This document shows, in pieces, positions 6,924 to 62,799 of a stretch of 64,000 nucleotides of DNA (positions are counted from its first letter, which is position 1; each line of letters starts with the position of its first letter). Both the position numbers and the translations under genes were made by a program. The notes below the pieces were generated by a model. The model did no database searches. It worked only from the letters and a program-made list of their open reading frames with translations, and was not told where the DNA came from. This stretch comes from Paracoccaceae bacterium (GTDB lineage: Bacteria > Pseudomonadota > Alphaproteobacteria > Rhodobacterales > Rhodobacteraceae): assembly GCA_017510335.1 (NCBI GenBank), contig JAFWNM010000007.1, forward strand, positions 124,001-188,000, read 5' to 3'.

Positions 6924-7409
6924 ATGGACAAGATTTTCCTGAAGGCCGCATTTCACCGCGCCATGCTGTTTGCGGGGGGCTGGCTGGTCCTGACAAATGC
7001 GCAGCATGACGCGCTCGCGCCTGGACTGGGTGTGTCAATTGCGGCGACCTGGCTTAGCCTTCGGCTGCTTCCCGCCCGCCACCCCGTCATGCTGTGGCGG
7101 CTGGCGCGCCATCTGCCCCGGTTCGTTGCAGGGTCGTTAAAGGGCGGTGTGGATGTGGCGCTGCGCGCCTTTTCACCGCGCATGCGCCTGAACCCCGGCT
7201 GGATTGAAGTGTCGTGTGATTTGCCCGATGGCGCGCGCGCCGCGCTGGGCGGGGAATTGTCGCTGATGCCGGGCACATTGGCCGCCGGCAGCGCGGAGGG
7301 TAAACTGCTTGTGCATCTGCTGGACACCGATGCGGGCCATGACACCGCCATCCCGCGCGAGGCGGCCTATATCGCGGCACTTATCGGGCGCAGGTCCCAA
7401 CAGGCATGA
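6924..7409 (+). CDS. mrpE: Mrp/Mnh-type Na+(K+)/H+ antiporter subunit E
   Basis: First gene of an eight-gene operon for a multisubunit monovalent cation/proton antiporter of the inner membrane. 161 residues: an N-terminal membrane segment (AMLFAGGWLVL), a second hydrophobic stretch, then the soluble MrpE domain with LNPGWIEVSCDLPDG and the conserved SLMPGT and VHLLDTD motifs. The ATG at 6924 is chosen since upstream in-frame codons encode no membrane helix. The stop is one base from the mrpF start. The 221 bases upstream, shared with the divergent monooxygenase gene, must hold the operon promoter; I see no clear operator there. Confidence 0.88.
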   Translation: MDKIFLKAAFHRAMLFAGGWLVLTNAQHDALAPGLGVSIAATWLSLRLLPARHPVMLWRLARHLPRFVAGSLKGGVDVALRAFSPRMRLNPGWIEVSCDLPDGARAALGGELSLMPGTLAAGSAEGKLLVHLLDTDAGHDTAIPREAAYIAALIGRRSQQA

Positions 7410-44575: not shown

Positions 44576-45862
44576 CTAGCGCGGGCCAAGCACCGTATTG
44601 GGTAGCCACAGCGCGATCTGGGGCACTGCGGCCAGCAGCGTCAGAACGATCAGCAGCGGGATGAAGAAGGGCAGCACTGCGCGCACCACATGTTCCACCG
44701 GAATTTCGGCAATGCGGGCGACAATATACAGACCAATGCCCATGGGCGGGGTCGCAAGGCCCAGGATCAGGCCCATCTGCATGACAATGCCGAAATGGAT
44801 GCGGTCAATCCCGTAAGCATCCACCAGGGGCAGCAGGATCGGCACAAGCAACAGCTTCGCTGTTACCCCGTCGATGAAACACCCCACCACCAGCACAATC
44901 CCGACCACGGCCATCAGAAACAGGAAGGGCCGGTCAATCAGGCCCGGCACGGCGGCAGCAATATCTTGCGGGATGCGTTCCACCGCCAGCAGCCAGCCCA
45001 TACCATTGGCAAACCCGATGATGATCATGATCATCGCAGTAATCAGCATGGTGTCACCTATGGCCGACCAGATCGCGGAAAACCGGAAACTGCCATAGAA
45101 CAGCGACAACAGCAGCGTATAGCCACAGGCCAGAATGCCTGCCTCGGCGGCGGTGGTGGTGCCGGTCAGAATGCCTGCCATGATGATGCCGGGCGCGGCC
45201 AGCGGCGGCGTGCCTTTCAGGATGCAGGTCCAGATCTCGCGCCCGGTGGCCTTGGGTTGGGTCGGCAGGTCCACAACCGACGCATAGATGCGGTTATAGA
45301 TCATCAGCGCCACCGCAATCAGGATCGCAGGCCCGATACCGGCCAGAAACATGCGCGCCACTGAGACATTGGCCAGGAACGCATACACAACCAGCGGAAC
45401 AGATGGCGGGATGAACGGGGCCAGAATGGCCGATACTGTCGTAATCGCCGCCGAGAAGGATGCCGTGTAGCCCCGCTCGCGCATGGCGCGAATTTCCACC
45501 ACACCCAGCCCGGCGATATCGGCCACTGCGGCCCCTGTGCCGCCGGCCATCAACACGGATGCCAGCACATTGACCTGTGCCAGACCGGCCTTGAAATGGC
45601 CAATCAGGGCGTTGGCCATGTTGAACAAACGCTCCGTCAGGCCGACAGCATTCATCAGGTTGCCCGCCAGCACAAAAAACGGGATCGCCAGCAGCGATGA
45701 ATTGTTCACCCCTTCCTGAACGCGCATGGGAATAATCCACAAGGTGGTTTCATACCCTGCCGCAAGCAGCGACCCCAGCACCGAAATGCCGATGGCCATG
45801 GTAATCGGAACCCGCAGCGCCAGCAGCACAAGGAAACCCACAAACAGCAGCATTGCGGTCAT
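44576..45862 (-). CDS. dctM: TRAP transporter large permease
   Basis: 428 residues, about 12 helices. DctM landmarks include PFFVLAGNLMNAVGLTERL, the GGTGAAVADIAGLGV re-entrant region and LGLATPPMGIGLYIV. It overlaps the dctQ gene by four bases. This is the second complete TRAP system in the window; its gene order (P-Q-M) matches the first one at 32.7-35.6 kb. Confidence 0.9.
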   Translation of the reverse strand: MTAMLLFVGFLVLLALRVPITMAIGISVLGSLLAAGYETTLWIIPMRVQEGVNNSSLLAIPFFVLAGNLMNAVGLTERLFNMANALIGHFKAGLAQVNVLASVLMAGGTGAAVADIAGLGVVEIRAMRERGYTASFSAAITTVSAILAPFIPPSVPLVVYAFLANVSVARMFLAGIGPAILIAVALMIYNRIYASVVDLPTQPKATGREIWTCILKGTPPLAAPGIIMAGILTGTTTAAEAGILACGYTLLLSLFYGSFRFSAIWSAIGDTMLITAMIMIIIGFANGMGWLLAVERIPQDIAAAVPGLIDRPFLFLMAVVGIVLVVGCFIDGVTAKLLLVPILLPLVDAYGIDRIHFGIVMQMGLILGLATPPMGIGLYIVARIAEIPVEHVVRAVLPFFIPLLIVLTLLAAVPQIALWLPNTVLGPR

Positions 45863-46383
45863 TGCACACCCCCCGGCACATTTGCGGAAACGGACTCTCC
45901 CTCATCGGGGGCACCGTTGATCAGTCGGTCAACCGTGTCGCGCAGGAAATCCAGCAAGATCAGGGTGCAGGACGCGTAGAACGGCACAGAAAGCCAGTAG
46001 CGCTGCAGACCAACATAATCCATGTTGCCCACCTGACGCGGCAGCAGCGTTTGTGCCTGCCACAAGATGACGCCCATCAGCGTCATGATGACAAGGTTGG
46101 TCAGGATGGTGACGGCGTTTTGCATGCGCAGCGGCATCAGCCGATACACGATGTCCACCTTGATGTCCCGGTTGCGGCGGTAAATCACATAGAACCCCAG
46201 AAACACCATCCAGACAAATAGAACCGTCGTCCAGGGAAACACCCAGATCAGTCCGCGTTCCCACAGGAAACGCGACCCGATATTCGCGATGTTGATAAAC
46301 AGGATGACGATCAGCGCACCGTTGGCGCCGACGAAGAAAACCTTCTCCGTCAGCCCCAGAAAGCGGTCCAGCAGTTGCAACAT
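45859..46383 (-). CDS. dctQ: TRAP transporter small permease
   Basis: Four-helix membrane protein, about 174 residues, with FVWMVFLGFYVIYRRNRDI characteristic of DctQ. The ATG at 46383 follows the dctP stop by ten bases. A GTG at 46401 that overlaps the dctP end is an alternative start; neither has a clear ribosome-binding site, so translation may be coupled. Confidence 0.85.
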   Translation of the reverse strand: MLQLLDRFLGLTEKVFFVGANGALIVILFINIANIGSRFLWERGLIWVFPWTTVLFVWMVFLGFYVIYRRNRDIKVDIVYRLMPLRMQNAVTILTNLVIMTLMGVILWQAQTLLPRQVGNMDYVGLQRYWLSVPFYASCTLILLDFLRDTVDRLINGAPDEGESVSANVPGGVQ

Positions 46384-46393
46384 GGTGCGACTG

Positions 46394-47395
46394 CTATTCA
46401 CGCGTTTCGTTTACAGCATCCAGAAACCCTTCGGGCAGGGTTCCGGCCGCGTCCATTGCCGCATACATTTCGGCCATACGGGAAACAAACGGCGCAGTAT
46501 CCAGATCGCTGAACGTCGCGCCTTCGCCCTTCATGCGCTCGATGGCTTCGTCAGCGATTTCGCCCATGACGCGCGCCGATTCCTGCGCCACCGCATCATA
46601 CGCATCCAGCAGATGGCCCTGCATTTCTTCGTCCAGCTGGTTCCATGAAACGGCACTCATCATGAAGGCCATGCCCTGTTCGTATTCGTCATGGCGCAGG
46701 ATATGGGGCGCAACTTCGTGGAAGCGCATGGATTCGACCAATGCGATGGGGCTGTTCACAGCCTCGACAATGCCGCGCCCGATGGATTCGTAGGTTTCGG
46801 TCCAGGCCAGGGTGCGCACCTCGGCACCCAGATGGCGCCAGCTTTCGGCGGCCAGTTCGTCAGGGTGCATGCGCAGCCTGATGCCGTCCATTTCCTCCAG
46901 TGTTTCGAACTGGCGCGACGCCAGCATCACCCGGTAGGGGCCGCGCACAAACGCTGTGGAATCGCCCAGAACAACAATCCCGGCTTCATCTTCAACGCGG
47001 CCCAGCCAGCCCTGAACCATGTCCGACGCCATGAAGCGCGACCAGTGGTCGCGATCGTCAAACAGAAATGGCGCCGAGGTGAACTGCATCTCGGGGACCC
47101 ATTTCTGAAGGTAGCTGATGCCTTCGGGGTAAATATGGATGGTGCCCAACTGGATTTGCTCCAGCACCGCATCATCTGATCCCAGTTGTTCGCTGGGATA
47201 GACTTCCACGCTCAGGTCGCCGCCTGTGCGTTCGGCCACCTCGTCTGCGAACATCTGGAACAATCGCCCTTCGATAGATTCCGGCGGCATCTTGTGCGAC
47301 ATCCGCCATGTCTGTGCGACCAGCGCGCTTGATGCTGTCAGGCCGATTGTCACCGCGGCAGCACCGCTAACCCACTTCGAAACTGTTATTTTCAT
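46394..47395 (-). CDS. dctP: TRAP transporter substrate-binding protein
   Basis: Periplasmic binding protein, 333 residues, with a signal peptide (AAAVTIGLTASSALVAQ). DctP landmarks: FADEVAERTGGDLSVEVYPS, the conserved Arg in GIRLRMHPDEL and VEAVNSPIAL. First gene of the second TRAP operon, divergent from the Crp/Fnr gene. A bulky dicarboxylate or carboxamide ligand would fit the downstream amidase. Confidence 0.9.
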   Translation of the reverse strand: MKITVSKWVSGAAAVTIGLTASSALVAQTWRMSHKMPPESIEGRLFQMFADEVAERTGGDLSVEVYPSEQLGSDDAVLEQIQLGTIHIYPEGISYLQKWVPEMQFTSAPFLFDDRDHWSRFMASDMVQGWLGRVEDEAGIVVLGDSTAFVRGPYRVMLASRQFETLEEMDGIRLRMHPDELAAESWRHLGAEVRTLAWTETYESIGRGIVEAVNSPIALVESMRFHEVAPHILRHDEYEQGMAFMMSAVSWNQLDEEMQGHLLDAYDAVAQESARVMGEIADEAIERMKGEGATFSDLDTAPFVSRMAEMYAAMDAAGTLPEGFLDAVNETRE

Positions 47396-50006: not shown

Positions 50007-50480
50007 TCAGAACAGCATTTGCCGTGACAGCAGGATAGGGGCCAATTGGGTAAACAAAACCCAGAAGACCGCGCCCGCGCAGGCGGACACGATGCCAATG
50101 CCCAATCCGCCCCGCGCGTTGGACCCCGACAGGCACCAGATCGCGCCCGCCATGAACAGTGCCGTTGATACCGCCAGCCCGATATGGCGCACCGCGATAA
50201 AATAGCATCCGGCCCAAAGCAGCCCGGCCGCAACCGGCCATGGGGACAGGGTCAGCACGTCCTCGTGCTTGCTGGTGGGCCGTATCCGCCCCGCCAGAAG
50301 CCCCGCCCCGGACAGGACAATAACCCAATATGCCACCATTGGGATCAGGTGGTTGCCAATTCCCGGCCCCGGCCGCCATGCCCCGTAGCGGATATCCAGC
50401 AGCCCCGCCGCCCCCAGCAGCAACAGCAAGATGCCCAGCAAGATGTCGCGCTGTGCAGCGCCCATGCGTGACGCAGTCAT
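50007..50480 (-). CDS. tctB: Tripartite tricarboxylate transporter small permease
   Basis: Small membrane subunit of a TTT importer, 157 residues with four hydrophobic segments. It begins with a soluble leader and DILLGILLLLLGAAGLLDI, typical of TctB. Overlaps tctA by four bases (ATGA). It is the last gene of the tctCAB unit. Confidence 0.85.
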   Translation of the reverse strand: MTASRMGAAQRDILLGILLLLLGAAGLLDIRYGAWRPGPGIGNHLIPMVAYWVIVLSGAGLLAGRIRPTSKHEDVLTLSPWPVAAGLLWAGCYFIAVRHIGLAVSTALFMAGAIWCLSGSNARGGLGIGIVSACAGAVFWVLFTQLAPILLSRQMLF

Positions 50481-52009
50481 GATGCCTCTCCTTTGGCGGG
50501 GGTGCGGCGCGCGCGGGTCAGCAGCCGGAAAATCACCAGAAGCCCGATTGTCCCGCCATAGATGCCCAGCGCCAGCGGGCTTGTGACCAGATGGGACCAG
50601 TCATTGCGTCCCAGCATCAGCGCCTGCCGAAGCGATTCTTCCAGCCCCGGGCCTACGATGAACCCCAGCACCAGCGGCCCCAGCGGCACCCCGAACCAGC
50701 GCAGCCCCACCCCCAGAACGCCCGCTGCCAACAGCATCCAGACATCCTTGACGGAATTGCCCGACGCATAGGTGCCAAGGATCGCCAGACCCAGCACAAT
50801 GGGCAGCACGAAGCGCGGCTGGATCATCGCCAGACGCGAATAGACCGGCAGCAGCAATTTGGATGCGACCAGATTGAACAGGTTTGCATAGATCAGGATC
50901 ATGAACAAAGCATAGATGATTGGCATGTTGTTTTGCATCATGGTCGGCCCGGGTGTGATGCTCATCATGATCAGGGCCGCACCGAACAGCGCCGCTGTGG
51001 CGCTGCCGGGAATGCCGAAGGCAAATAGCGGGATGAATGTTGCCCCCGATGTCGCGCTGTTGCCCGCCTCGGCGGCGGCCACCCCTTCAAGGGACCCCTT
51101 GCCGAAATCCTGTGGCCTGCGCGACAGTTTTTGTGCCACGCCGTAACTCATGAACGCGGCCAGCGATGCACCCGCCCCGGGCAAGGCCCCGATGAAGGTG
51201 CCCATGCCCGTGCCCAGCATCGTCGCCCTTAGGGTGGAACGGAACGTGGCCCAATCCATCTTGTCTGCCGCCGGGTCATATGCCTGGCTGTCGGACCCTT
51301 GGGCCGCAGTGTCATGGGCCACACGCCGCGCCGCCCATTGCCGCGCAATCTGGACCATGATTTCGGACACAGCGAACACCCCGACCAGCAGCGGAATAAG
51401 GCCAATTCCGCCTGACAGTTCCGGCAGGCCAAATGTCAGCCGCTGTGCCCCGGTAATCGGGTCGCGCCCGATCATGGCCAGCATGACCCCCAGCGCCGCC
51501 GCCGCAATACCGCGCGCCACCTGGCCCATCGTCAGCGCGGCAACCAGTGTCAGCGACACGACATATAGCGCGAAGAATTCCACAGGGCCGAATTTCAGCG
51601 CCACCAGCGCCAGCGGCAAGGCAAGGAAAATCAGGATCAGGTCGCTTGTCGTGTCGCCAATGATGGACGAATACAGCGCCGTATGCAGCGCGCGGTTGGG
51701 CTTGCCCGCAAGCTTGGCCTGATATCCGTCAATGACCGTTGCCGCAGCCCCGGCTGTGCCCGGCACCCCGAATGTTATTGCTGAAATTGACCCCCCGAAC
51801 ATGCTGCCCTTGTAAATGCCCACCAGCAAACCCAGCGCCGCCGCGGGTTCCAGCACGAAAACAAAGGGCAGCAGAACGGCAATTGCCATATCGCCCGACA
51901 GGCCCGGTATGGCCCCCACTGTTATTCCCACCACAATGCCCAGACAGGCGAAAATTATAACCTCTGGCGCGAATGCAAGGGCAAGCGCCTCGTTGAGGAA
52001 TTCCAGCAT
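50477..52009 (-). CDS. tctA: Tripartite tricarboxylate transporter large permease
   Basis: 510-residue membrane subunit, about 12 helices. Typical TctA sequences: VGITVGAIPGLSGDMAIAVLLP (two adjoining parts), GSMFGGSISAITFGVPGTAGA and EAGNSATSGATFIPLFAFGIPGS (two adjoining parts). It forms the translocation path with TctB and receives substrate from the binding protein encoded upstream. Confidence 0.9.
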   Translation of the reverse strand: MLEFLNEALALAFAPEVIIFACLGIVVGITVGAIPGLSGDMAIAVLLPFVFVLEPAAALGLLVGIYKGSMFGGSISAITFGVPGTAGAAATVIDGYQAKLAGKPNRALHTALYSSIIGDTTSDLILIFLALPLALVALKFGPVEFFALYVVSLTLVAALTMGQVARGIAAAALGVMLAMIGRDPITGAQRLTFGLPELSGGIGLIPLLVGVFAVSEIMVQIARQWAARRVAHDTAAQGSDSQAYDPAADKMDWATFRSTLRATMLGTGMGTFIGALPGAGASLAAFMSYGVAQKLSRRPQDFGKGSLEGVAAAEAGNSATSGATFIPLFAFGIPGSATAALFGAALIMMSITPGPTMMQNNMPIIYALFMILIYANLFNLVASKLLLPVYSRLAMIQPRFVLPIVLGLAILGTYASGNSVKDVWMLLAAGVLGVGLRWFGVPLGPLVLGFIVGPGLEESLRQALMLGRNDWSHLVTSPLALGIYGGTIGLLVIFRLLTRARRTPAKGEAS

Positions 52010-52107: not shown

Positions 52108-53067
52108 TCAGTCTTCAAAATGATCCAGAATTGCAATCAGATTGTCGATGGTCGTAAGATAGGCCGTCTGGCTGGCCTCTGCGCCCAGTGGCTGGACATC
52201 GGTGCCGGTGCGCTGGCCCAGGGCTTGGGCAGCATCGCTCTCAAGGGCGGCCAGAATGCCCTCTTCAAGGATTGCGCGCCGTTCTTCGGACACATCACGA
52301 TGTGCGAAAATCGTATACCAGGCCGGCAGAACCACGTCATACCCCAGTTCGCGCAGGGTTGGCACATCAGGCTGTGCTGCGACACGTTCTGCCGTTGCAA
52401 CGGCCAGCGCGACAAGGCTGCCGTCATCAATGCCGCCCTGAATGGTCGAAGGTACGGACGCGCCGATATCGACCTGCCCCCCCAGAACGAAGGCCAGCGC
52501 CTGCGATCCGCCGGTTGTGGGCAAGTGGATGGTGCTGAAATCGGCTTCGCTTTCCAGCAGGATCAAGGGCAGATGCGGCACGCTAAGGTGGCGGCCATGC
52601 CCCACGCTGATGGTATCAGGCGCAGCGCGCGCGGCGTCAATCCAGGCTTCAAGGCTGGTGTAATCGCTGTCGGCACGCGCAAAGAAGATCGGCGCGACTT
52701 CGGTGATCTGGGCACTGGGCACCCATTCATCCAGTTCATAGCCCACATCTTCGCGCAGCGCAGTCGTCACCAGCGGGCCGTAATCGGTGATCAGCAGCGT
52801 GTAGCCGTCTGGGTCGGCGTCGCGGACATATTGAATGGCTTCTTGTCCGCCTGCCCCGCTTAGGGAAACAACATCGACGCGCGTATCCAGAAATTCACCC
52901 GACACGCTGGACAGAATGCGCCCTGCAATGTCAACCGCGCCCCCCGCACCATAGGGGCTGATCAGGCGAATGGGCTTTTCGCTGGGAAAGTCGGCAGCGC
53001 TGACGCCCCCCGCCGTGATGCTGGCAACGCTGACGGCGCAGGCCAGTGCGATGTTCTTGAAAGTCAT
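52108..53067 (-). CDS. tctC: Tripartite tricarboxylate transporter substrate-binding protein
   Basis: Periplasmic binding protein of the Bug/TctC family, 319 residues, with a signal peptide ending near GGVSAAD. It starts the mature part with PIRLISPYGAGGAVDIAGR and has ITDYGPLVTTAL and VPTLRELGYDV. Such proteins bind carboxylates and also pyroglutamate-like or amide ligands. Two copies of the GTATAC-type motif lie between this gene and the divergent DUF6282 gene, suggesting control by the GntR protein of the island. Confidence 0.88.
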   Translation of the reverse strand: MTFKNIALACAVSVASITAGGVSAADFPSEKPIRLISPYGAGGAVDIAGRILSSVSGEFLDTRVDVVSLSGAGGQEAIQYVRDADPDGYTLLITDYGPLVTTALREDVGYELDEWVPSAQITEVAPIFFARADSDYTSLEAWIDAARAAPDTISVGHGRHLSVPHLPLILLESEADFSTIHLPTTGGSQALAFVLGGQVDIGASVPSTIQGGIDDGSLVALAVATAERVAAQPDVPTLRELGYDVVLPAWYTIFAHRDVSEERRAILEEGILAALESDAAQALGQRTGTDVQPLGAEASQTAYLTTIDNLIAILDHFED

Positions 53068-53204
53068 GGAATCTTCTCCTGTTGGTGATCTACTTGCCGC
53101 AGCGACATGCGAAATCCGCCTTGGCGTGTCCCTTTCATTTGCTGCTGACCCTGTTCCGTCAGCGGCTGAACGCGCGCCAAATGGTCGCAGCGTCCTGCTG
53201 GTTT

Positions 53205-53222
53205 GGTATACAATCAGTATTC
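53205..53222. promoter_or_regulatory. Shared operator-like motif, site 1
   Basis: GGTATACAATCAGTATTC: two half-sites (GTATAC and GTATTC) separated by five bases, in the 286-base divergent region between tctC and the DUF6282 gene. It is nearly identical to the site at 61002-61019 read on the minus strand (GGTATACAAACAGTGTAC). Confidence 0.6.
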
Positions 53223-53314
53223 ATTTGTCAAAGCTTTGTCATTGTTTTTGTCACCCGCGTTGCGGCAATGCGCAATTGTGCCGGATTGACAGGCATTCGG
53301 CCGAACGGCATAAT

Positions 53315-53332
53315 GGCATACAGTTAGTATAC
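53315..53332. promoter_or_regulatory. Shared operator-like motif, site 2
   Basis: GGCATACAGTTAGTATAC: half-sites GCATAC and GTATAC with the same five-base spacing, 22 bases before the DUF6282 start. It would overlap the promoter or leader of the plus-strand unit. Confidence 0.6.
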
Positions 53333-53353
53333 ATTTTGGCAGGGGCAGAACGC

Positions 53354-54289
53354 ATGTTGTCTGAAGGCGCGGATCTTTTGCGCGGCAGTATCGACTGTCA
53401 TGTTCATGTCTGTCCGCATATGAACGGCCGCAGTGCCACAGTGTTTGACGCAGTGCGTCAGGCCAGTGCCGCAGGGCAACGGGCGATTGTGCTGATGGAC
53501 AATTTCCAGAATTCCGCCGGGTATGCGGCCCTGGCCGCGATGGAACTGGCGGACTTGAATGTAGATGTGCTGGGCGGCGTGATCTTGCAACCCTGCGCCG
53601 GGGGCATATCGTTTGAAGCGGCGCAGATTGCTGTTGATTATGGCTATGGCGCAGGCACCGGCGCGCGGTTCATCTCGTTGCCAACGCATCACACTCGCCA
53701 TGTCGCGTTGCACGAAGGGCGCAGTGCCGCGCAGGCCGATGCTGCCTTTCATGTGCCCGAAAACGGCCTGTTGCCTGAGGCGCTGTATCAGATCATGGAT
53801 TTGTGTGCGGCGCGCGACATTGTGTTTGACTGCGGCCATATCTCTGGCCCCGAAGCGGTGCGCCTGACCGAAATTGCCCGCGCGCGCGGGATCGAACGCC
53901 TAAGGGTGCATTGTTCGGACCATACCCCCGATACGATCCGGGAACTGGCGGCACTGGGGGCGTTTTGCGAATTTTCCTTCTTCGTGCTGTCGCATGCCAC
54001 ACAGGTGGGGCTAACCCATGCGGATGCCGAAAAACACAAGATTGCGGGCATGACCCTGGACGCACAAGTTCAGCGCATTCGCGCCGCGGGCGCACAGGCG
54101 CTGGTGTCGTCGGATGCGGGCATATCGTTGCTTGCCCCGCCGGTTGAAACCTTCCGGCAGTATTTGTTGCTGCTGCGGGCAGCGGGGTTCGATGACACCC
54201 AGCTTCGCCGCATGAGCCGCGACATGCCCGGCGCGTTGTTCGGGATACCCCTGAATGACACCGCCCAACCCCTTTCCCAGCGGAGATAA
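53354..54289 (+). CDS. DUF6282-like putative metal-dependent hydrolase
   Basis: 311 residues with features of the amidohydrolase superfamily: HxH in IDCHVHVCPHMNG, His in FDCGHISGPEAV and VHCSDHTPDT, and Asp in LVSSDAGISLL. The metal ligands would suit a zinc or similar hydrolase. Activity is not established for this family. The ATG at 53354 is chosen because the conserved part starts right after it. It is followed after only four bases by the dihydropyrimidinase gene, so the two are co-translated and may act in sequence on a cyclic amide. Confidence 0.72.
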   Translation: MLSEGADLLRGSIDCHVHVCPHMNGRSATVFDAVRQASAAGQRAIVLMDNFQNSAGYAALAAMELADLNVDVLGGVILQPCAGGISFEAAQIAVDYGYGAGTGARFISLPTHHTRHVALHEGRSAAQADAAFHVPENGLLPEALYQIMDLCAARDIVFDCGHISGPEAVRLTEIARARGIERLRVHCSDHTPDTIRELAALGAFCEFSFFVLSHATQVGLTHADAEKHKIAGMTLDAQVQRIRAAGAQALVSSDAGISLLAPPVETFRQYLLLLRAAGFDDTQLRRMSRDMPGALFGIPLNDTAQPLSQRR

Positions 54290-54293
54290 GCCT

Positions 54294-55682
54294 ATGGACA
54301 TGTTCGACATCGTTATTACCGGGGGAACCATCGCCACCGCATCCGATACGTTTTGTTGCGATGTGGGCATTCGCGGTGGAAAGATTGCAATGCTGGGCGA
54401 CGGGCTGGCGGCCTATGCCAATGAGGTGATTGACGCCACTGGCAAATATGTCCTGCCCGGCGGAATTGACAGCCATGTGCATATTGCCCAACCGTCAGGC
54501 GAGGGGATTGTCATGGCCGACGGGTTCGAAAGTGGCACCCTGTCTGCGTTGTTCGGTGGCAATACCACAATCATGCCCTTCTGCCTGCAGGAACGCGGGC
54601 GCGGTTTGCGCCAGACATTGGCGGAGTACCACGCCCTTGCAGAAGGGAGTTGCTACACCGATGTCAGCTTTCATCTGATCGTGTGCGACCCATCCCCCGA
54701 CGTGCTGGGGCAGGATTTGCCGGCGCTGGTCCATGATGGCTACACTTCGCTCAAGGTGTTCATGACTTATGAAAACCTGCGGCTGAATGATGCGCAATTG
54801 CTGGCGACCTTCGATGTGGCGCGCGATCTGGGCGCAACTGTGATGGTCCATTGCGAAAATGAAGACGCGATTCGCTTCCTGATCGAAAAGCACGAAGCGG
54901 CGTCGCTGCTTCGGCCGTCCAGCCATGCGACCACGCGCCCCGTCGCAGCCGAACGCGAGGCAACACATCGCGCAGTGTCACTGGCCGAAATCGTCGATAT
55001 TCCGGTGGTTATTGTCCATGTGTCGAACGGGGCCGCGATTGATGAAATCACGCGCGCGCGGCAGCGCGGGTCCACAGTGACCGCTGAAACCTGCCCGCAA
55101 TATCTGGTTCTGACTGCGGCCGATCTGGACGGGATGGACTGGGAAGGTGCAAAATTCGTCTGCTCCCCCCCGCCGCGCGACACTGCCGATCAGCAAGCGT
55201 GCTGGCAAGGGCTGCGTGATGGCACCTTCGATCTGTTTTCATCAGATCATTGCCCTTACAAATATGACAGCGTGGACGGCAAGCTGAACCCCAAAGGCGC
55301 GCGCCATTTCCGGCATATTCCAAATGGCATTCCCGGTGTTGAAACGCGCATGCCGATCCTGTTTTCCGAAGGGGTGCGCAAAGGGCGCATTGATATCAAC
55401 CGCTTCGTGGCGCTGACCTCGACCAACCACGCGCGCAGCTATGGGCTTTATCCGCGCAAGGGCACCATCGCCATAGGGGCGGATGCCGATATCGCCATCT
55501 GGGACCCCGAACTTGACGTCACCATCCGCCATGACGATTTGCATGACGGCGCCGATTATTCCCCTTATGAAGGGCTAGAGGTGCAGGGCTGGCCCGTCAC
55601 AGTGCTTTTGCGGGGCAAGGTGATGGTGCGTGACCGGATTATGGTGGCGAAAAAGGGTGACGGACAGTATGTTCGGCGCTAA
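54294..55682 (+). CDS. hydA: Dihydropyrimidinase/hydantoinase-family cyclic amidohydrolase
   Basis: Zinc hydrolase that opens a five- or six-membered cyclic diamide or imide ring, 462 residues. Metal ligands are seen in GGIDSHVHIAQPSG, the carbamylated Lys in TSLKVFMTYENL, His in ATVMVHCENED and VVIVHVSNG, and Asp in FSSDHCPYKYDS. A GGAG ribosome-binding site precedes the ATG at 54294. The exact substrate (dihydropyrimidine, hydantoin, allantoin or another cyclic amide) is open. No N-carbamoyl-amino-acid amidohydrolase gene is in the window. Confidence 0.87.
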   Translation: MDMFDIVITGGTIATASDTFCCDVGIRGGKIAMLGDGLAAYANEVIDATGKYVLPGGIDSHVHIAQPSGEGIVMADGFESGTLSALFGGNTTIMPFCLQERGRGLRQTLAEYHALAEGSCYTDVSFHLIVCDPSPDVLGQDLPALVHDGYTSLKVFMTYENLRLNDAQLLATFDVARDLGATVMVHCENEDAIRFLIEKHEAASLLRPSSHATTRPVAAEREATHRAVSLAEIVDIPVVIVHVSNGAAIDEITRARQRGSTVTAETCPQYLVLTAADLDGMDWEGAKFVCSPPPRDTADQQACWQGLRDGTFDLFSSDHCPYKYDSVDGKLNPKGARHFRHIPNGIPGVETRMPILFSEGVRKGRIDINRFVALTSTNHARSYGLYPRKGTIAIGADADIAIWDPELDVTIRHDDLHDGADYSPYEGLEVQGWPVTVLLRGKVMVRDRIMVAKKGDGQYVRR

Positions 55683-55731
55683 TCACCGCGCATGTGCGTA
55701 ATTTCCGGGCCAATACAGGTGTCGCCAAACC

Positions 55732-56388
55732 ATGCAAAAACCGTCCTCCACCTTTGTTTCGCGCACAGGGTCGCTGCCTGACATTGCCGTTCAAAGGATT
55801 ACCGAATTTGTGCGCAACCGCAAATTGGTTGGTGGCGAAGCGATAGTGGAACAAAAACTGGCCGAGGAACTGGGCATTTCGCGCACCCCGCTGCGCGAGG
55901 CCCTTCAGCGCCTCGAAGGCGAAGGGATGCTGGAAAAGGATTCGGGGCGGTCATTCCGGGTGCGCCGCGTCTATATGGAAGAATATCTGCAAAGCCTGAA
56001 GGTCCGTATCTTGCTGGAACCGCAGGCCGCAGCCGATGCCACAGGCCGCATTCCGCCGTCAGAATTATCCGATGTGCGCATGCGGTTGGCGCAATTGCGC
56101 CCCGTTGCCGATACCCCAAGGCAGCAGCACTGGGATTTCGACGATATGATGCACCGCCTTTATACCCGCAATTGCGGAAACGCAGTGCTGCAAGCCATCA
56201 TTGAACGGCTGCGCGTCGCAACCCGGTTGTTTGAAATCGCCGATCTGGGTGCCCGTTTCGAGGCTGACATCGTTGAACACACCGCCATCCTTGACGCCTT
56301 GGAAAACGGTGTTGCCGCAGATGCCCGCAAGGCGGTGCGCGCGCATCTGCGCAGCCTGATGGACTTCTCGCTGCATCAACTGCGCTAG
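55732..56388 (+). CDS. GntR-family regulator, FCD type
   Basis: 218 residues: winged helix with QKLAEELGISRTPLREALQR (family hallmark) and a C-terminal FCD domain (HWDFDDMMHRLYTRNCGN and DIVEHTAILDAL) with possible metal ligands. It lies 49 bases after the hydantoinase gene on the same strand, within the same island. The three GTATAC-N5-GTATAC sites upstream of the island's transcription units are typical of FadR-type operators with GT/AC half-sites, so this protein is the likely binder. Confidence 0.88.
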   Translation: MQKPSSTFVSRTGSLPDIAVQRITEFVRNRKLVGGEAIVEQKLAEELGISRTPLREALQRLEGEGMLEKDSGRSFRVRRVYMEEYLQSLKVRILLEPQAAADATGRIPPSELSDVRMRLAQLRPVADTPRQQHWDFDDMMHRLYTRNCGNAVLQAIIERLRVATRLFEIADLGARFEADIVEHTAILDALENGVAADARKAVRAHLRSLMDFSLHQLR

Positions 56389-56490
56389 CGCATGTTTCTC
56401 AAAAGTAGGGACCGGTTTTGAGCTTCTCGAACATGCGAAATCAATAAGGCAGCGCATGTTGCCCAACGCCGGGAATTGGTTTTGCGCCTT
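56388..56490. repeat. Dispersed intergenic palindromic repeat, copy D
   Basis: Best-preserved copy, between the convergent GntR and bicupin genes. Nested inverted repeats: CGCATGTT (56389-56396) with AACATGCG (56430-56437), and inside them CTCAAAA (56398-56404) with TTTTGAG (56416-56422). It is followed by GAAATCAATAAGG and a second CGCATGTT. The element could fold into a hairpin on both strands. Confidence 0.65.
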
Positions 56491-57252
56491 CTAGGCGCGG
56501 GGCAACGGGTCCCGGTTCCAGTTCTTATAAATCAGGTATCGCGCGTTTTCCCGCCCGATGGCCCCGAACCATTGCGGGCAATACGCCCCCATCCAGATGG
56601 TATCCCCGGCGGTGACAGGATACCAGTCATCTTCCAGCCGGTAAATTCCGCCGCCATCCAGCATGACCAGCCCATGTTCCATGAAATGCGTTTCGACATA
56701 GGGCAGGCTTGCGCCCGGCTCAAAGGTCATGGTGTTGATTTCCATGTCCCATTCCGGCCCTTCGGGCAATAATTTCTGCACCTGCAACCGCGCGTCGCCC
56801 TTCAGGGGGGCGGACGGCACAGCCCCGATCGCGGCAAAATGCGCGGCAGGGGCAGGCGTGTCTGCCTTTGGCACATAGGGCCGTTCCAGAACCAGCAGCT
56901 CTGCGCCCGCGTCTGCGCTGAGTGTATGGGCATATCCGGCGGGCAGAAAGGCATAGTCATCCTTGTGCAGTGTCTTGCGCCCGCATTGGGTGTCAATACC
57001 CACCTGTCCGTCGCGGACCAGCACAAACCGTTCGTGCATTGCGCCGCACTGCGAAACACACAGCGCATCTTGCGCGCGCGCCAGAAACAGCGAAAACCCC
57101 GCCCCTGTCTGTGGCGTGACCAGATGCACAAGGCCCGCGCCCGCCCAGTCGGGCAGGGTGACCATTTCGTGGCTGTCAGGGGTAATCAGCGCGTGCCGTT
57201 GCGCAATCCGTGAACGGGTAAGGCCCAATGTGTTCATCATGGTCGCTTTCAT
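56491..57252 (-). CDS. Bicupin protein, (S)-ureidoglycine aminohydrolase-like
   Basis: 253 residues with two cupin domains, the architecture of ureidoglycine aminohydrolase (UGHY/AllE), which releases ammonia from ureidoglycine with a Mn site. Domain 1 has GRKTLHKDDYAFLPAGYAHTL; domain 2 has YVETHFMEHGLVMLDGGG and DTIWMGAYCPQWFGA. It overlaps the DapA-family gene by four bases (ATGA at 57252). No allantoate amidohydrolase or ureidoglycolate gene is present, so the enzyme may act on a different ureido or amino compound. Confidence 0.8.
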   Translation of the reverse strand: MKATMMNTLGLTRSRIAQRHALITPDSHEMVTLPDWAGAGLVHLVTPQTGAGFSLFLARAQDALCVSQCGAMHERFVLVRDGQVGIDTQCGRKTLHKDDYAFLPAGYAHTLSADAGAELLVLERPYVPKADTPAPAAHFAAIGAVPSAPLKGDARLQVQKLLPEGPEWDMEINTMTFEPGASLPYVETHFMEHGLVMLDGGGIYRLEDDWYPVTAGDTIWMGAYCPQWFGAIGRENARYLIYKNWNRDPLPRA

Positions 57253-58196
57253 GCCAGTAGGTTCGATCCGCAAAGAACCGCGCGCAACCGCGCCAGTTCG
57301 GGTTCTGTCAATTGCCGCATCGGACGGCGGACAGTGTCATGCGGGATGTGGCCCATCAGTTTCAGGCACGCTTTCAGGCGCGCTGTTGCCAGATTGCCGG
57401 GTGTGTCACGGTATATCGCAACTGACAGTGCATACAGGTCTTCGTGACAGGCCCGCGCGGCCACCCAGTCCCCCGCCTGCGCGGCAGCGCATAGCGCAAC
57501 GATGGTTTCGGGAATGATTGCCGCCAGCGACACCTGACTGCCATGCGACCCAATCAGATAGCTTGTCAGCAAATGTTCGTCCCCTGATCCCAGCACCGCC
57601 ACATCAGGGCGCAGGGCGGCTGTCAGGCGCCATGTGTTTTCATAGGCGGCAACTTCCCAGCTGCCTTCCTTGATGGCGGTTATGGCGCTGATCTCTTGCA
57701 AAAGCGCCGTCATCACCGTGTCGGGATAAGACATCGGCCCAGCGGTGACAGGGGCCTTGTAAACCACCAAGGGCAGGTCAACTGCCGCCGCAATGGCCGC
57801 GTGATGGCCCAGGACAATATCCTTGTCAGCGCCCCCGGCCCAATGATTGGGGGGAAACACCAACAGCGCATCTGCCCCCGCCTGCGCGGATACGCGCGCT
57901 TCGTCAATGGCGGCGGCGGTCGATTCAGCCGTCACGCCGGCGGTAATGAAGGTGGACCGCGCCGTATTGGCGCGCGCAATCGTGATGACCTGCGCGCGTT
58001 CGTCCTGCGTCAGAAAATGCCCTTCGCCCGCATGACCGTTCAGCAACAGCCCCTTGATACCCGGCGTGTCGCAGGTTTGCGCCAGATGGGCCGCCAGGGC
58101 CTGCGTGTCAATACGCCCGTCCATGTCCATCGGGCAGACTGTGGCCGCGTGAATGCCCCAATGGACGACAGGGTTTGTTGGTGGAACGTTACTCAC
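57249..58196 (-). CDS. Dihydrodipicolinate synthase-family lyase
   Basis: Class I aldolase-type TIM barrel of the DapA family, 315 residues. Schiff-base Lys in ITAIKEGSWEV, Tyr in LVVYKAPVTAG, and the NGHAGEGHFLTQDER loop in place of the usual TTGE motif. It starts at a GTG at 58196 that overlaps the FAD-oxidase gene by eight bases. Family members include 4-hydroxyproline-pathway pyrroline deaminases, which sit beside the same type of three-subunit dehydrogenase found here. The context makes a dehydratase/deaminase more likely than lysine biosynthesis. Confidence 0.83.
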   Translation of the reverse strand: MSNVPPTNPVVHWGIHAATVCPMDMDGRIDTQALAAHLAQTCDTPGIKGLLLNGHAGEGHFLTQDERAQVITIARANTARSTFITAGVTAESTAAAIDEARVSAQAGADALLVFPPNHWAGGADKDIVLGHHAAIAAAVDLPLVVYKAPVTAGPMSYPDTVMTALLQEISAITAIKEGSWEVAAYENTWRLTAALRPDVAVLGSGDEHLLTSYLIGSHGSQVSLAAIIPETIVALCAAAQAGDWVAARACHEDLYALSVAIYRDTPGNLATARLKACLKLMGHIPHDTVRRPMRQLTEPELARLRAVLCGSNLLA

Positions 58197-59331
58197 GACG
58201 ATGTCCTTGCGTTTTGGTGTCAGTGCCGGGCTGCGCCAGCAGCCGGTCAATGGGGAAAAGCGGCATCTCTGGCTCTTGCCCGAGGATGGCTTGCGTGATG
58301 CAGCGCGCCATATACGGCGCGCTTGTATAGCCCGAATGCACGGACCCGCAGACCCATGCGCCATCAAATCCGGGAACCGGCCCGACAGCGGGCAGCGCAT
58401 CGGCGGTTTCGGCCTCGAAGCCGGTCCAACTGCGCACAATGCGCGTGGACCCAAGGCCGGGAATGGCATGCATGGCCAGACGCACATTGCCAATCAGGCT
58501 GCTGTGGCGGACAGAATGGGTGTTGGATGTCCTGTTACCAATGCCCTGCCACCCGCCACCTATGACAACAGTGCCATGCGGGTATTGCTTCAGCGACAAC
58601 AGGCCGCTTGCAATGCCCACCACTGTGCGCATGACAGGGGGCATGCGTTCGGTCACGGCCAGTTGGTTGATCAGCGTTTTGATCGGCAGGTTGACGCCCA
58701 GCCAGCCCAGCATCGGTTCCAGCCAGACCCCGCCTGCGAACACCACCTGCCGGGCGCGCAGCGTTTCATTCGCCAGATGCACGCTATACCCCCCCGCCGA
58801 CGGGTCCACAGTTTGCACGGTGGTATATTCGCGCAGCTCCACCCCTTCCGCGACCAGCGCGCGGCGAAAGGCAAGGCCGGTCAGATAGGCATTGGCAAAC
58901 CCGTCAATCGTGCAATGGCTGGCCATGCGTATGGCGGGGCTGACACCGGGTTCAATCTGGCGGGCCTGTTGCGGGGTGACAAGCCGGATGGGGGCACCCG
59001 CCGCGCGCCGCGCGTCCGCGCGTTCCGACAACAAGGCTTCCTCGGCCTCGGTAAAGGCCAGCGACAGCCCTTCGCAGGACACCACGCCCACATCATGACC
59101 CAGCCATTCCGGCGCACGCACCCACATGTCATGCGCCCGCAACGCATAGGGAATCAGCGCCGCGCGCGTCATTTGCATGGTCAGCGTGCCCGCATTTGTC
59201 CCCGACGCCCCGCGCGCCAGCGCGTCGCGTTCAACCAATGTGACCCGCATGCCCCCGCGTGCGGCAAACAGCGCAATCGCGGCCCCATGCACGCCGCCGC
59301 CAATAACGACAAGATCCACCCCCCCTGTCAT
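58189..59331 (-). CDS. FAD-dependent amino-acid oxidase subunit (DadA/HcnC-like)
   Basis: 380-residue DAO-fold flavoprotein with N-terminal GGGVHGAAIALFAARGG (FAD ADP-binding) and C-terminal WTGFEAETADALPAVGPVPG and VCGSVHSGYTSAPYMA, as in the catalytic subunit of heterotrimeric amine/opine/hydroxyproline dehydrogenases. The start at 59331 makes an ATGA overlap with the preceding flavoprotein gene, supporting a complex of the three adjacent products. Confidence 0.85.
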   Translation of the reverse strand: MTGGVDLVVIGGGVHGAAIALFAARGGMRVTLVERDALARGASGTNAGTLTMQMTRAALIPYALRAHDMWVRAPEWLGHDVGVVSCEGLSLAFTEAEEALLSERADARRAAGAPIRLVTPQQARQIEPGVSPAIRMASHCTIDGFANAYLTGLAFRRALVAEGVELREYTTVQTVDPSAGGYSVHLANETLRARQVVFAGGVWLEPMLGWLGVNLPIKTLINQLAVTERMPPVMRTVVGIASGLLSLKQYPHGTVVIGGGWQGIGNRTSNTHSVRHSSLIGNVRLAMHAIPGLGSTRIVRSWTGFEAETADALPAVGPVPGFDGAWVCGSVHSGYTSAPYMARCITQAILGQEPEMPLFPIDRLLAQPGTDTKTQGHRRE

Positions 59332-60728
59332 AGCGGGGCCGGTTTCGGAACAGGGATGTCTGCATAGTCGAACTGGCCCGCCAGTTGGGCCACCGCGACC
59401 GGGTGCAGGGGGCTGCGCGGTGTCAGGACATCGCCACCGGGTTTCGTGCCCGGGCTGGTGCGCAGCAGGGCGGCTGCATTGGCACCACACATGCGGCCCT
59501 GACATGGCCCCATGCCCAGGCGGGTAAAATGCTTCAGTTGGTTCGCGTCTTGCGCCCCGTCCGCGATTGCGCCGCGCACGGCGCCGACGGTCACATCCTC
59601 GCACCGGCACAGAACCACATCATCCGCCAGACCGGCAATCCGCGCATCGTCCACCTGCATCAAGCTGCAAGACGCATCTGCGAAACGGTCCATACGGCGC
59701 GGCGTTTTTGCAGGTGCCGCACTGAGCGCGCAGCCCGCATCGCGGGCAATGGCAAGGCCCGTTCGGGTGCCCTGGGCGGCTGCCGGCAAGGCCCCGCGAA
59801 TGCGCCCCGCATCCCCAGCGACATACAGTCCGGGAATTTTGCAGCGCCCTTCGTCATCTGCCTCTATGCGCCAGCCCGTTAGGGGGTCTGGCCTGCGTCT
59901 GGCCCCCAGAAGGCGCAAAATCTCGTCCCCGGGCACCAGACTGTTGCCCACAAAAGCGGTGTCCACTTCGAACATCCGGGGGGTGCCGCCGCCAACCGGG
60001 GTAACGTGAACAGCGCCCAAAGCGCCTGCATCATTCGCTTCAGCGCGGGAAATCGCGTGTTTTCGCAGGATGGGCACGCCCGCAAGCGCCAGTTTCGCCT
60101 GCCATGTCAGCCCCTGTCGCAGGGATGGCAGGTGCCCGACAAAGCCACGCAACGCCTGGACCCAACGCCCAAGGCCGTTGAAATCCACCACCGCGACAGG
60201 GGCCTTGCCAAGTTTCAGCGCTTTTGCGGCCACAGCGACCAGCAACGGGCCTTGGCCCGCCACCAGAATTCTGCGCCCGGGCAGGAAGTTTTCGGATTTC
60301 AGCAAAACAGTTGCCGCCGCCAGCCCGAAAACCCCCGGCAAGGTCCATCCCGCGAATGGCACAACGCGTTCCTGCGCGCCGGTGGCAACCAGAAGCCTGC
60401 GGGTGCCAATCAGTTCCGGCCCCTGTGGGCTGGCAATTGCAACCTCGAATCCGTCTTGGGTTGCTGCGACTGACCAAACGACAGTTTGTGCCCGCAACGC
60501 AACGCCCGCTTGCGCGACCTGCGCGCGCAGATGGTTGCCCCGTGTAAGGTCCGGGTCCGGGGGCGGATGGGTGCCCGCTGCGGGCGCGCGCCAGACTTGC
60601 CCGCCGGGGTGTGCGGCTTCGTCAACAAGCACCACATCAAGGCCCGCGCCCGCCGCCGACAGGGCCGCATTGGCCCCCGCTGGCCCCGCGCCTATGATGA
60701 TCAGGTCATGGAAGGGGGCCGCGCTCAT
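59328..60728 (-). CDS. FAD/NAD(P)-dependent oxidoreductase with BFD-like 2Fe-2S domain (HcnB-like)
   Basis: 466 residues. N-terminal FAD site IIIGAGPAGANAALSAAGAG, a second dinucleotide-type site ILVAGQGPLLVAVAAKAL and the ATGAQERVVPFAGW segment. The C-terminal BFD-type iron-sulfur domain carries LCRCEDVTVGAVRGAI and MGPCQGRMCG, so four cysteines in a CxC...CxxxxC arrangement. It forms an electron-transfer subunit of an HcnABC/opine-oxidase-type membrane-associated dehydrogenase. It overlaps both neighbours by four bases. Confidence 0.86.
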   Translation of the reverse strand: MSAAPFHDLIIIGAGPAGANAALSAAGAGLDVVLVDEAAHPGGQVWRAPAAGTHPPPDPDLTRGNHLRAQVAQAGVALRAQTVVWSVAATQDGFEVAIASPQGPELIGTRRLLVATGAQERVVPFAGWTLPGVFGLAAATVLLKSENFLPGRRILVAGQGPLLVAVAAKALKLGKAPVAVVDFNGLGRWVQALRGFVGHLPSLRQGLTWQAKLALAGVPILRKHAISRAEANDAGALGAVHVTPVGGGTPRMFEVDTAFVGNSLVPGDEILRLLGARRRPDPLTGWRIEADDEGRCKIPGLYVAGDAGRIRGALPAAAQGTRTGLAIARDAGCALSAAPAKTPRRMDRFADASCSLMQVDDARIAGLADDVVLCRCEDVTVGAVRGAIADGAQDANQLKHFTRLGMGPCQGRMCGANAAALLRTSPGTKPGGDVLTPRSPLHPVAVAQLAGQFDYADIPVPKPAPL

Positions 60729-60985
60729 CCGGCCGATGCCCCGGCAAGAACCACGCACATGCCATCGCGCACGACAGTTTGACAGGCGCGCTGGATGTGG
60801 CCGTCAATCATGATCGCGCATTCCTGACAGGCCCCCATCAGGCAAAACGCCCCGCGCGGGGCGCGTCGCGCAGGGCTGGTGCGGAACTGATAGATGTCCT
60901 GCGCCAGCAGGGCTGCGGCAACACTCATCCCCGCGCGGCAGGCCAGCGGACGTTGATTCACAGTGATCTGTATCGCATCGGTCAT
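60725..60985 (-). CDS. Small 2Fe-2S ferredoxin-like subunit (HcnA-like)
   Basis: 86 residues with an N-terminal beta-grasp ferredoxin fold (ITVNQRPLACRAGMSVAAAL) and Cys in FCLMGACQECAIMIDG and RACQTVV, giving the four ligands of a 2Fe-2S cluster in this family. First gene of the five-gene operon. The start at 60985 is taken because the fold begins immediately. Site 3 of the shared motif lies 17-34 bases upstream, where a repressor could block transcription. Confidence 0.85.
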   Translation of the reverse strand: MTDAIQITVNQRPLACRAGMSVAAALLAQDIYQFRTSPARRAPRGAFCLMGACQECAIMIDGHIQRACQTVVRDGMCVVLAGASAG

Positions 60986-61001
60986 GGGGCCTCGGATGTT
61001 A

Positions 61002-61019
61002 GTACACTGTTTGTATACC
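61002..61019. promoter_or_regulatory. Shared operator-like motif, site 3
   Basis: On the minus strand GGTATACAAACAGTGTAC: half-sites GTATAC and GTGTAC with five-base spacing, as in sites 1 and 2. It lies upstream of the 2Fe-2S subunit gene and thus of the five-gene dehydrogenase/lyase/bicupin operon. Confidence 0.6.
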
Positions 61020-61137
61020 GAACCCCTGTTGTGTTGCAACCGGATTCGGTCCTGCCCACCCTTGCGCAAACTGGCGACCGCGGGCGGGCCTGTCTGCGCC
61101 GCGCGCGCCGCTTTGGTCCGCAACACCCCGGAATGGT

Positions 61138-61449: not shown

Positions 61450-62799
61450 TCAGATGGACAGCGCGGCCTTCGTGGCCAGCCATGCCTGCAGGGTCATGCG
61501 TTCGGGCCCTGACAGCGCGCGCGGGATCAGCGCGCCCGCATAGAACCGCCCGCTGGAATAGGCACTGCCGGCGTTGAAAATATGCGACAGTCCCGTAAGG
61601 GGGGACAGGCTGCCTGCAAGCGTGCTGATGGTCGCGGTTTGCCCGCTTCGCCATGCCTGTGGGGCGGCTGGTCCGTCGATTTGCACAATATCAACCTGTC
61701 TGCCCTGAACAGATTGCGTGGAAAAATCCGCCTGATTGTCGACGGCCTGATTGCGCCAGCGCAGACCACTGGACACAGTTTTGGTAAAGCGCCCTGTGCC
61801 GCCGAAAATGATCCCCTCGTTGGGGGCGGCGGGCAGGAACGCAATGTCATGCGCGGCCGCAAGCATATAGGATGTCTGGCCCCCGAAAGGGGTTGCGAAT
61901 GCCAGCCGGTCATCCACCCCGTCAAAACCCAGATATTGCACATCATCCTGTCCGGCTTCGGTCACGTCAAACCCGTTTGCAGCCGTGATCTGCACGGCAC
62001 TCGGTTCGCTGGCCTGTTCCAGCTGCGGCGCCGATATGTCCAGCACTGTGTCGATTGCGCCGCCTGACAGGGACAATTGCAACAAGATACGCGTGTTGGT
62101 AATGCCAGCGCCAGACAATACGCCCGTAGCCGCGCGCCGCAAATCATCTGCCAGGCTGTCCAGAAAATTGCCGCCATTGGTTCCGCCCAGAAACCCGGTT
62201 GTGCTGAAATGGGTGTTGATGATTGACGCGCCTGTAATGTTTGCCGTGCTGCCGCCGACCATCTGCACCCAGGCTGAACCTGACCATGTTTGCCCTGTCG
62301 CGCTGGAAACCGATGCGGGGGGCGTGAAGTTGATCTGCATGTTGCCGGTGGGGGTGCCGCTTAATCTGATGCGGGTGTTCGGCCTGCCATTTTTCGGCGC
62401 AATCGAGAGCACCTCGACCGCGCTGTTGGGTATGTTGGAAATGCCCCATGCGGCGGGCAGTGCCCCCCCCGCGCCCAATACGCCGGTTGCAGCGCCATCC
62501 ATGCGGGTGTTGGGCAGGCGGTTGCGCAACCCCGATGCGGGGTGGCGGCCAAATGTCGGGCGGCTGTTGGGCGCGCTTTGGGTCGCGTGCAGGCCCAGCC
62601 CCGACTGGTCGTGCAGGCATGCGACGCTTTGGCCAGGTGTGGTAACGGGCAGGGTGCCCGCGACATCCTGAAACGCCCCTGTATCAGCAGAAAACACCGC
62701 GCCTTGTGACTGGTGTGTGAACAACAGTTGTGGCCGCCACCGTCCTTTGCGGTGCCATGCCGGCATATTGTGCAGGTTTACCGACAGCCCCAGTTTCAT
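61450..62799 (-). CDS. Phage/GTA-like head-spike or tail-structural protein
   Basis: 449 residues, rich in Ala, Gly, Ser and Thr, with beta-type sequence throughout. The opening KLGLSVNLHNMPAWH, the segment FDVTEAGQDDVQYLGFDGVDDRLAFA and the final SGPERMTLQAWLATKAAL resemble lectin-like phage or GTA surface proteins. It overlaps the spike-base gene by four bases, so the pair most likely corresponds to the GhsA/GhsB head-spike proteins described for the Rhodobacter gene transfer agent. This correspondence comes from memory and context, not from a search. Confidence 0.6.
   Translation of the reverse strand: MKLGLSVNLHNMPAWHRKGRWRPQLLFTHQSQGAVFSADTGAFQDVAGTLPVTTPGQSVACLHDQSGLGLHATQSAPNSRPTFGRHPASGLRNRLPNTRMDGAATGVLGAGGALPAAWGISNIPNSAVEVLSIAPKNGRPNTRIRLSGTPTGNMQINFTPPASVSSATGQTWSGSAWVQMVGGSTANITGASIINTHFSTTGFLGGTNGGNFLDSLADDLRRAATGVLSGAGITNTRILLQLSLSGGAIDTVLDISAPQLEQASEPSAVQITAANGFDVTEAGQDDVQYLGFDGVDDRLAFATPFGGQTSYMLAAAHDIAFLPAAPNEGIIFGGTGRFTKTVSSGLRWRNQAVDNQADFSTQSVQGRQVDIVQIDGPAAPQAWRSGQTATISTLAGSLSPLTGLSHIFNAGSAYSSGRFYAGALIPRALSGPERMTLQAWLATKAALSI

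Follow-up and report, generated by a model that had tools for sequence, protein, structure and literature searches.

Phased GTATAC palindromes as probable operators of an FCD-type GntR regulator in a catabolic island of a Paracoccaceae bacterium

Genes and operator-like sites of the island

The 64,000-nucleotide stretch of Paracoccaceae bacterium DNA analyzed here (the window; contig JAFWNM010000007.1) contains a catabolic gene island in which three operator-like sites built of GTATAC hexamers lie upstream of three transcription units. The first unit, on the minus strand, encodes an importer: its binding protein tctC (52108-53067; TctC, 2e-27) and the subunits tctA (50477-52009; TctA, 3.7e-125) and a tctB-like protein (50007-50480; TctB, 7.6e-9). 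Divergent from it is a plus-strand unit of a DUF6282 gene (53354-54289), a gene for a cyclic amidohydrolase of the dihydropyrimidinase/D-hydantoinase family (54294-55682; NF009941 at 714 bits with a cut-off of 647, and TIGR02033 at 530.4 with a cut-off of 393.25) and, third, the gene of a GntR-family regulator with an FCD domain (55732-56388; Pfam GntR at 1.1e-13, FCD at 5.7e-19, each above its gathering score). Convergent to this unit is a five-gene minus-strand operon encoding, in order of transcription, a small 2Fe-2S subunit (60725-60985), an FAD/NAD oxidoreductase with a BFD-like [2Fe-2S] domain (59328-60728), a DAO-family FAD oxidoreductase subunit (58189-59331), a DHDPS-family lyase (57249-58199) and a cupin of the (S)-ureidoglycine aminohydrolase family (56491-57240; TIGR03214 at 256.8 bits with a cut-off of 200). 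The first four were assigned by domain match, and the activity of the cupin is predicted.

Site 1 (53205-53222, plus strand; GGTATACAATCAGTATTC) reads GTATAC-N5-GTATTC and lies 137 bp before the tctC start codon. Site 2 (53315-53332, plus strand; GGCATACAGTTAGTATAC) reads GCATAC-N5-GTATAC and stands directly 3' of the -10 hexamer of the promoter of the DUF6282-hydantoinase-GntR unit, 21 bp from the start codon, whereas site 3 (61002-61019, minus strand; GGTATACAAACAGTGTAC) reads GTATAC-N5-GTGTAC and overlaps the likely -10 box 16 bp upstream of the 2Fe-2S gene. Every site consists of one exact GTATAC and one copy with a single mismatch, and the spacer is five bases in all three. Sites 1 and 3 agree at 15 of 18 bases, sites 1 and 2 at 14 and sites 2 and 3 at 13. 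Thus an earlier note on this DNA, which had placed such a motif at these positions upstream of the three units, with the same spacer, the same agreement between sites 1 and 3 and a GntR/FCD gene inside the island, was confirmed by our check of the sequence and by the Pfam matches.

The window holds three spacer-5 pairs with at most one mismatch and three with at most two, as compared with means of 0.000 and 0.125 in 40 windows simulated with equal dinucleotide composition. In the 3,614,859-base genome, GTATAC-N5-GTATAC with up to two mismatches occurs at 22 places, versus 116 for the backwards control (CATATG pairs). The total at this limit is uninformative and the case depends on the class with at most one mismatch, which contains the three island sites only, the other 19 places having two. 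The earlier note had named many unrelated genomic matches of equal score as a refutation; none was found at up to one mismatch in 3.61 Mb. The pattern GTATACANNNAGTATAC with up to two mismatches gave four places, the three island sites (one mismatch each) and one place with two, and its control, the pattern read backwards, gave 5 + 5 places.

A sigma-70-like promoter of the DUF6282 unit, TTGACA-N17-CATAAT (53286-53314, plus strand), has 11 of 12 consensus matches, one such promoter being found versus a mean of 0.2 in shuffled sequences. The likely promoter of the dehydrogenase operon, TTGCAA-N16-TATACA (61012-61039, minus strand), was read by eye, and relatives have a similar TTG..GTATAC layout; the consensus scan of the site 3 region found no promoter. 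Sites 2 and 3 lie just after or over the likely -10 boxes, which suggests repression by blocking RNA polymerase. The explanation that we favor, with a probability of roughly 0.85, is that the three sites serve as operators for the FCD-type GntR protein (gene at 55732-56388), which would repress all three units until a ligand binds.

Recurrence of the pairs near related GntR genes

Loci around relatives of the GntR gene were collected with a profile of five GntR relatives (at least 80 loci) plus four more, giving 84 loci and 1.29 Mb. Because L024 and L064 represent one locus, 83 of these are distinct; L071 and L076 are near copies. Treating all 84 as one set was abandoned in favor of a narrower claim, because in clusters with two regulators the operator tracks the second GntR gene. 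The claim rests instead on 34 loci having a like core (DAO at least 60%, DHDPS at least 47% or DUF6282 at least 48% identical; L035 and L045 entered by DUF6282 alone) and on plasmid records.

Upstream regions of 250 bp were counted in the like-core set, with expectations from dinucleotide shuffles. Removal of alike sequences reduced the 2Fe-2S set from 29 loci to 24, and 15 of these have a spacer-5 pair with up to two mismatches (0.01 expected) and 17 with up to three (0.41 expected). Upstream of the hydantoinase gene, the corresponding values are 5 of 17 (0.04 expected) and 11 of 17 (0.48 expected). An importer is divergent from the 2Fe-2S gene in 20 of the 29 loci, and in 19 of those 20 a pair with up to three mismatches intervenes. 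The importers are exchangeable: TctABC in the window, TRAP in Pseudoruegeria (L028) and, in L029 and L034, ABC with a binding protein of family 3; similarity to such binding proteins assigns the ABC type in 19 of the 20 divergent loci. The window has in addition a TRAP-type importer (DctP, DctQ; 45859-47395) a few kb from the island, with no spacer-5 pair of up to two mismatches nearby.

Seven plasmid records have a DAO homologue at E <= 1e-90 (54-58% identical). Their hosts are Burkholderia, Paraburkholderia, Pantoea, Acidisoma, two Rhizobium and one Hyphomicrobiales, from three proteobacterial classes. All seven have a pair upstream of the 2Fe-2S gene, six with at most one mismatch and one with three, and in three of the seven a further pair lies upstream of a GntR gene that forms its own unit. 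A like core with differing importers is present in alpha-, beta- and gammaproteobacteria. Some promoters in relatives have three elements in phase. Loss of the motif from islands that keep the GntR gene, which the earlier note had given as a refutation, is not the rule; a pair is present at the dehydrogenase operon, the hydantoinase gene and the importer in the larger part of the like-core loci.

Across the 84 GntR loci, GTATAC pairs with up to two mismatches were found 107 times at spacer 5, in 55 loci, and at most 22 times at any other spacer from 0 to 25; with up to one mismatch the counts are 15 and at most 3. In 53 nonredundant contexts of an exact GTATAC (of 98), a GTATAC-like hexamer (at least four of six bases matching) was counted 33 times at an offset of 11 bp to either side. 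Any other offset from 6 to 33 gave at most nine, that maximum being at 22 bp to either side. The 11-bp peak indicates that the signal has the period of one helical turn. Exact GTATAC-N5-GTATAC occurs at 13 places in 12 of 248 family genomes, too few for regulon prediction yet informative on neighbors: nine of the 13 lie within 1.5 kb of a GntR-profile gene. Two of those nine genes are close relatives of the window gene and seven are distant, all seven having GntR and FCD domains (Pfam). Spacer-6 exact pairs, taken as the control, occur at six places in four genomes, one of the six near a GntR-profile gene; the CATATG control was commoner, with up to 30 per genome.

These data bear on the proposal that the motif arises from core promoters or base composition, with -10 boxes of TATACA type merely resembling operators. 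GTATACA does overlap the dehydrogenase promoter at its likely -10, and smaller peaks occur at dehydrogenase promoters for other spacers (13 above all; also 3, 12 and 14). Spacer 13 is the second peak, with 11 of 24 2Fe-2S promoters at up to two mismatches, and may be due to conserved promoter sequence. However, such an origin leaves unexplained why a partner stands exactly 11 bp off, why the pair is unique in the genome at up to one mismatch and why exact pairs go with FCD GntR genes. The proposal is already largely contradicted, and we consider it very improbable.

A different proposal is that the sites are real but are read by another FCD GntR protein encoded elsewhere in the genome, with the island protein having other targets. 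Other FCD GntR genes also have phased GTATAC pairs beside them, and the central hexamer of two-regulator clusters follows the second GntR gene rather than the relative of the window gene. Moreover, 12 of the 19 two-mismatch places in the genome came with loci, and one of the 12 (L120) has another FCD GntR gene within 1.5 kb. In contrast, all 34 like-core loci have exactly one FCD GntR-like frame in the examined stretch, that frame is the relative of the window gene, and the pairs recur there. Each of the seven plasmid-record loci likewise has a GntR relative of 42-45% identity by the core, although L150 has two more GntR genes. A reader from elsewhere in the genome therefore seems unlikely.

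Several observations weigh against the island GntR protein acting at all three units. Site 1 is far from its gene (137 bp to tctC) and has only a weak candidate promoter, read by eye with a 15-bp spacer, the consensus scan there being without a match. A TctABC importer stands beside a site in the window only. At up to three mismatches, no pair was found in 7 of 24 nonredundant dehydrogenase upstream regions or in 6 of 17 hydantoinase upstream regions, and no exact GTATAC in 10 of 29 and 9 of 17, respectively. DUF6282 lacks an upstream pair of that quality in all 12 nonredundant loci, and the GntR gene has one in only 3 of 29, probably because these genes are often inside units there, closely behind another gene. 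The like-core locus L023 (GntR ~51% identical) has a single exact GTATAC with weak partners, and the close relative L028 has neither hydantoinase nor DUF6282 in the 16.6 kb examined. Note also that many of the loci are related, and thus the counts are not independent events.

The regulator, known operators and proposed repression

Residues E40, R51, T52, R55, D137, H141, H183 and H205 are invariant in all 51 aligned GntR proteins (the window protein plus 50 hand-picked of 79 relatives). The last four are presumably the FCD metal ligands. The solved relative found was 6z74, Atu1419 of Agrobacterium fabrum. According to PMC7797058, Atu1419 is an FCD GntR protein of the VanR group (PDB 6Z74, 6ZA0, 6ZA3, 6ZA7 and 6ZAB) that represses a catabolic cluster; its dimer site is a 10-bp palindrome, ATGTATACAT, two of its sites overlap -10 boxes, and the Glu, Arg, Thr and Arg recognition residues have DNA-contact roles. 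The two proteins have a common recognition stretch (SRTPVREAL in Atu1419 vs SRTPLREAL). They differ in that the Atu1419 palindromes are separated by 190 bp, or by 109 bp in the case of a degenerate partner, with a looping tetramer and a folate effector proposed in that paper, whereas the island pairs are 11 bp apart.

Since one Atu1419 dimer binds one palindrome and the recognition stretch is common, each GTATAC is likely one dimer site. The hexamer is thus probably a whole dimer palindrome, and the term half-site used in the earlier note is probably wrong; two dimer palindromes with centers 11 bp apart is the better reading. A single long palindrome having GTATAC as its half-site was dropped because each hexamer is itself palindromic, as is the site of the Atu1419 dimer, and also because the hexamers of sister clusters, GTATAC or GGATCC, are palindromes (although the scan gave palindromes extra score). 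A promoter with two or sometimes three dimer sites spaced by one helical turn suggests a repressor.

An activator or dual regulator, whose bound dimers would help RNA polymerase, can be set against this. The distance of site 1 from tctC fits such a role, as a distant array could also help the polymerase, but sites 2 and 3 fall after or over the likely -10 boxes, as with the repressor Atu1419, and we judge activation improbable. Under the repressor reading, two dimers or one tetramer would cover the -10/+1 region of the promoter from a single face of the DNA, next to each other on two GTATAC-type palindromes whose centers are one helical turn apart. The ligand-free protein would block the importer, the DUF6282-hydantoinase-gntR unit and the cupin-lyase-dehydrogenase operon, and with gntR inside the site 2 unit it would limit its own synthesis. 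Release would come from a ligand, probably a carboxylate of the pathway bound at the FCD metal site.

Side-by-side binding has a precedent. In PMC8012715, several dimers of the GntR-type repressor NanR of Escherichia coli pack on closely spaced repeats. NanR differs in that it uses GGTATA in three repeats and owes its cooperativity to an N-terminal extension, whereas the island has GTATAC palindromes with an 11-bp period; NanR-type direct repeats are absent from the three sites, GGTATA occurring as a single, unrepeated copy in site 1 and in site 3. The island sites also resemble those of the FadR subfamily as described in Suvorova 2015 (PMC4494728), which lists a GT-N2-AC core for UxuR, HypR, PrpR and others. 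The same paper describes extra boxes at a distance of 7-12 nt from the site center and leaves their function open. Each of the three sites contains one exact GTATAC that fits the palindrome NyGTM-N0-1-KACNy, and the partner at 11 bp falls within the range of the extra boxes. There the boxes are weaker half-sites, whereas the island-type partner is often a near-full palindrome in its own right, at a constant distance of 11 bp, and in some cases a third follows in phase. Operators of this kind are therefore already known (FadR-type GntR with extra boxes at 7-12 nt), and the architecture here is a sharpened form of them. With the 11-bp pairing fixed, the extra boxes near FadR-type sites can be cast as a testable model in which dimers lie next to each other. 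The open literature searched gave no paper on this regulon, on DUF6282 or on hydantoinase/GntR combinations, and for GntR with TGTATACA it gave the Atu1419 paper only.

Two-regulator clusters and the island pathway

In the 32 two-regulator clusters of Rhizobium, Agrobacterium and others, a hexamer scan that favored palindromes gave GTATAC as central hexamer in 11, GGATCC in 18 and GTATCC in two, one cut locus being unread. The flanking elements stay 11 bp off the central hexamer. The second GntR protein has Asp in 11 of 11 GTATAC loci and His in 18 of 18 GGATCC loci, and of the two GTATCC loci one has Thr and the other His. In a tree of the first GntR protein the GGATCC loci group together, and thus probably reflect one evolutionary switch. 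L014, outside this set, has Glu with a loosely scored GGATCC array and is a possible exception. Only three independent loci bear on such a residue code, all with Glu, two having a phased GTATAC array and one lacking it. In the clusters L060-L106 (~7000-7160), the residue after SRSPMR in the second GntR protein is Asp where the hexamer is GTATAC and His where it is GGATCC, which makes this residue a candidate specificity switch. Among GntR relatives elsewhere, those with Gln (SRTPLRQAL) in L025, L026, L082 and L147 each have a perfect GTATAC-N5-GTATAC pair, and a fifth at a separate locus, L098, has no pair at up to two mismatches; in relatives with Glu, one GTATAC copy is mostly exact and the other degenerate.

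Tentatively, phased palindrome arrays one helical turn apart may be a design that operators generally share in a large clade of proteobacterial FCD GntR repressors that bind as side-by-side dimers, with the recognition-helix residue after SRxPxR helping to set the palindrome (acidic or Gln, GTATAC; His, GGATCC). The window regulon would then be one member, with an undescribed cyclic-amide pathway. We consider this generalization possible, although the odds are somewhat against it.

The earlier note had also proposed a single pathway under one regulator. One regulator is well supported by comparison of the loci. A single pathway appears plausible from the gene neighborhood and from the like core that recurs with differing importers in three classes, although L028, without hydantoinase and DUF6282, argues against it. 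If so, a widespread catabolic module of hydantoinase, DUF6282, cupin, three-subunit dehydrogenase, DHDPS-family lyase and exchangeable importers would be tied to one regulator, and the motif could be used to predict module members and the putative substrates.

Hydroxyproline-type catabolic operons combine a heterotrimeric dehydrogenase and a DHDPS-family lyase with an epimerase and a ketoglutarate-semialdehyde dehydrogenase. The island is alike in its trio of 2Fe-2S, BFD-flavoprotein and DAO subunits beside a DHDPS-family lyase, but adds the hydantoinase, DUF6282 and the ureidoglycine-aminohydrolase-like cupin. The island proteins that were scanned include no hydroxyproline epimerase or aldehyde dehydrogenase, a search that did not extend to the rest of the genome. 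In L036, L039, L043, L051 and L055, the main cluster is accompanied by a second, distant copy of the flavoprotein and lyase genes (~29-36% identical), near which there are phased sites.

The DUF6282 protein is predicted from a domain match and a structure model to be an amidohydrolase-superfamily-like barrel. H16, H18 and further histidines are kept in all 11 aligned sequences. The model from these sequences (mean predicted local distance difference test score 87) loosely matches amidohydrolase-superfamily structures, the best by E-value being phosphotriesterase-like lactonases (template modeling score ~0.5, root-mean-square deviation near 7) and a dihydroorotase matching at 0.60, whereas no solved relative was found by sequence at E <= 0.01. 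At the limits used, the query found homologues in 2 of 295 family genomes, its own included, and none in the plasmid records. In L035 (4964-6004) a phosphotriesterase-family gene adjoins DUF6282, and the best E-value matches of the model are, as noted, phosphotriesterase-like. A 449-residue reading frame adjoining site 3 (61450-62799) has no Pfam match at E <= 1e-5. Beside the Paraburkholderia cluster (L114:12510-17427) are genes for an FmdB-type zinc ribbon, DUF3830 and two acetamidases/formamidases, a set that hints at amide release after ring opening.

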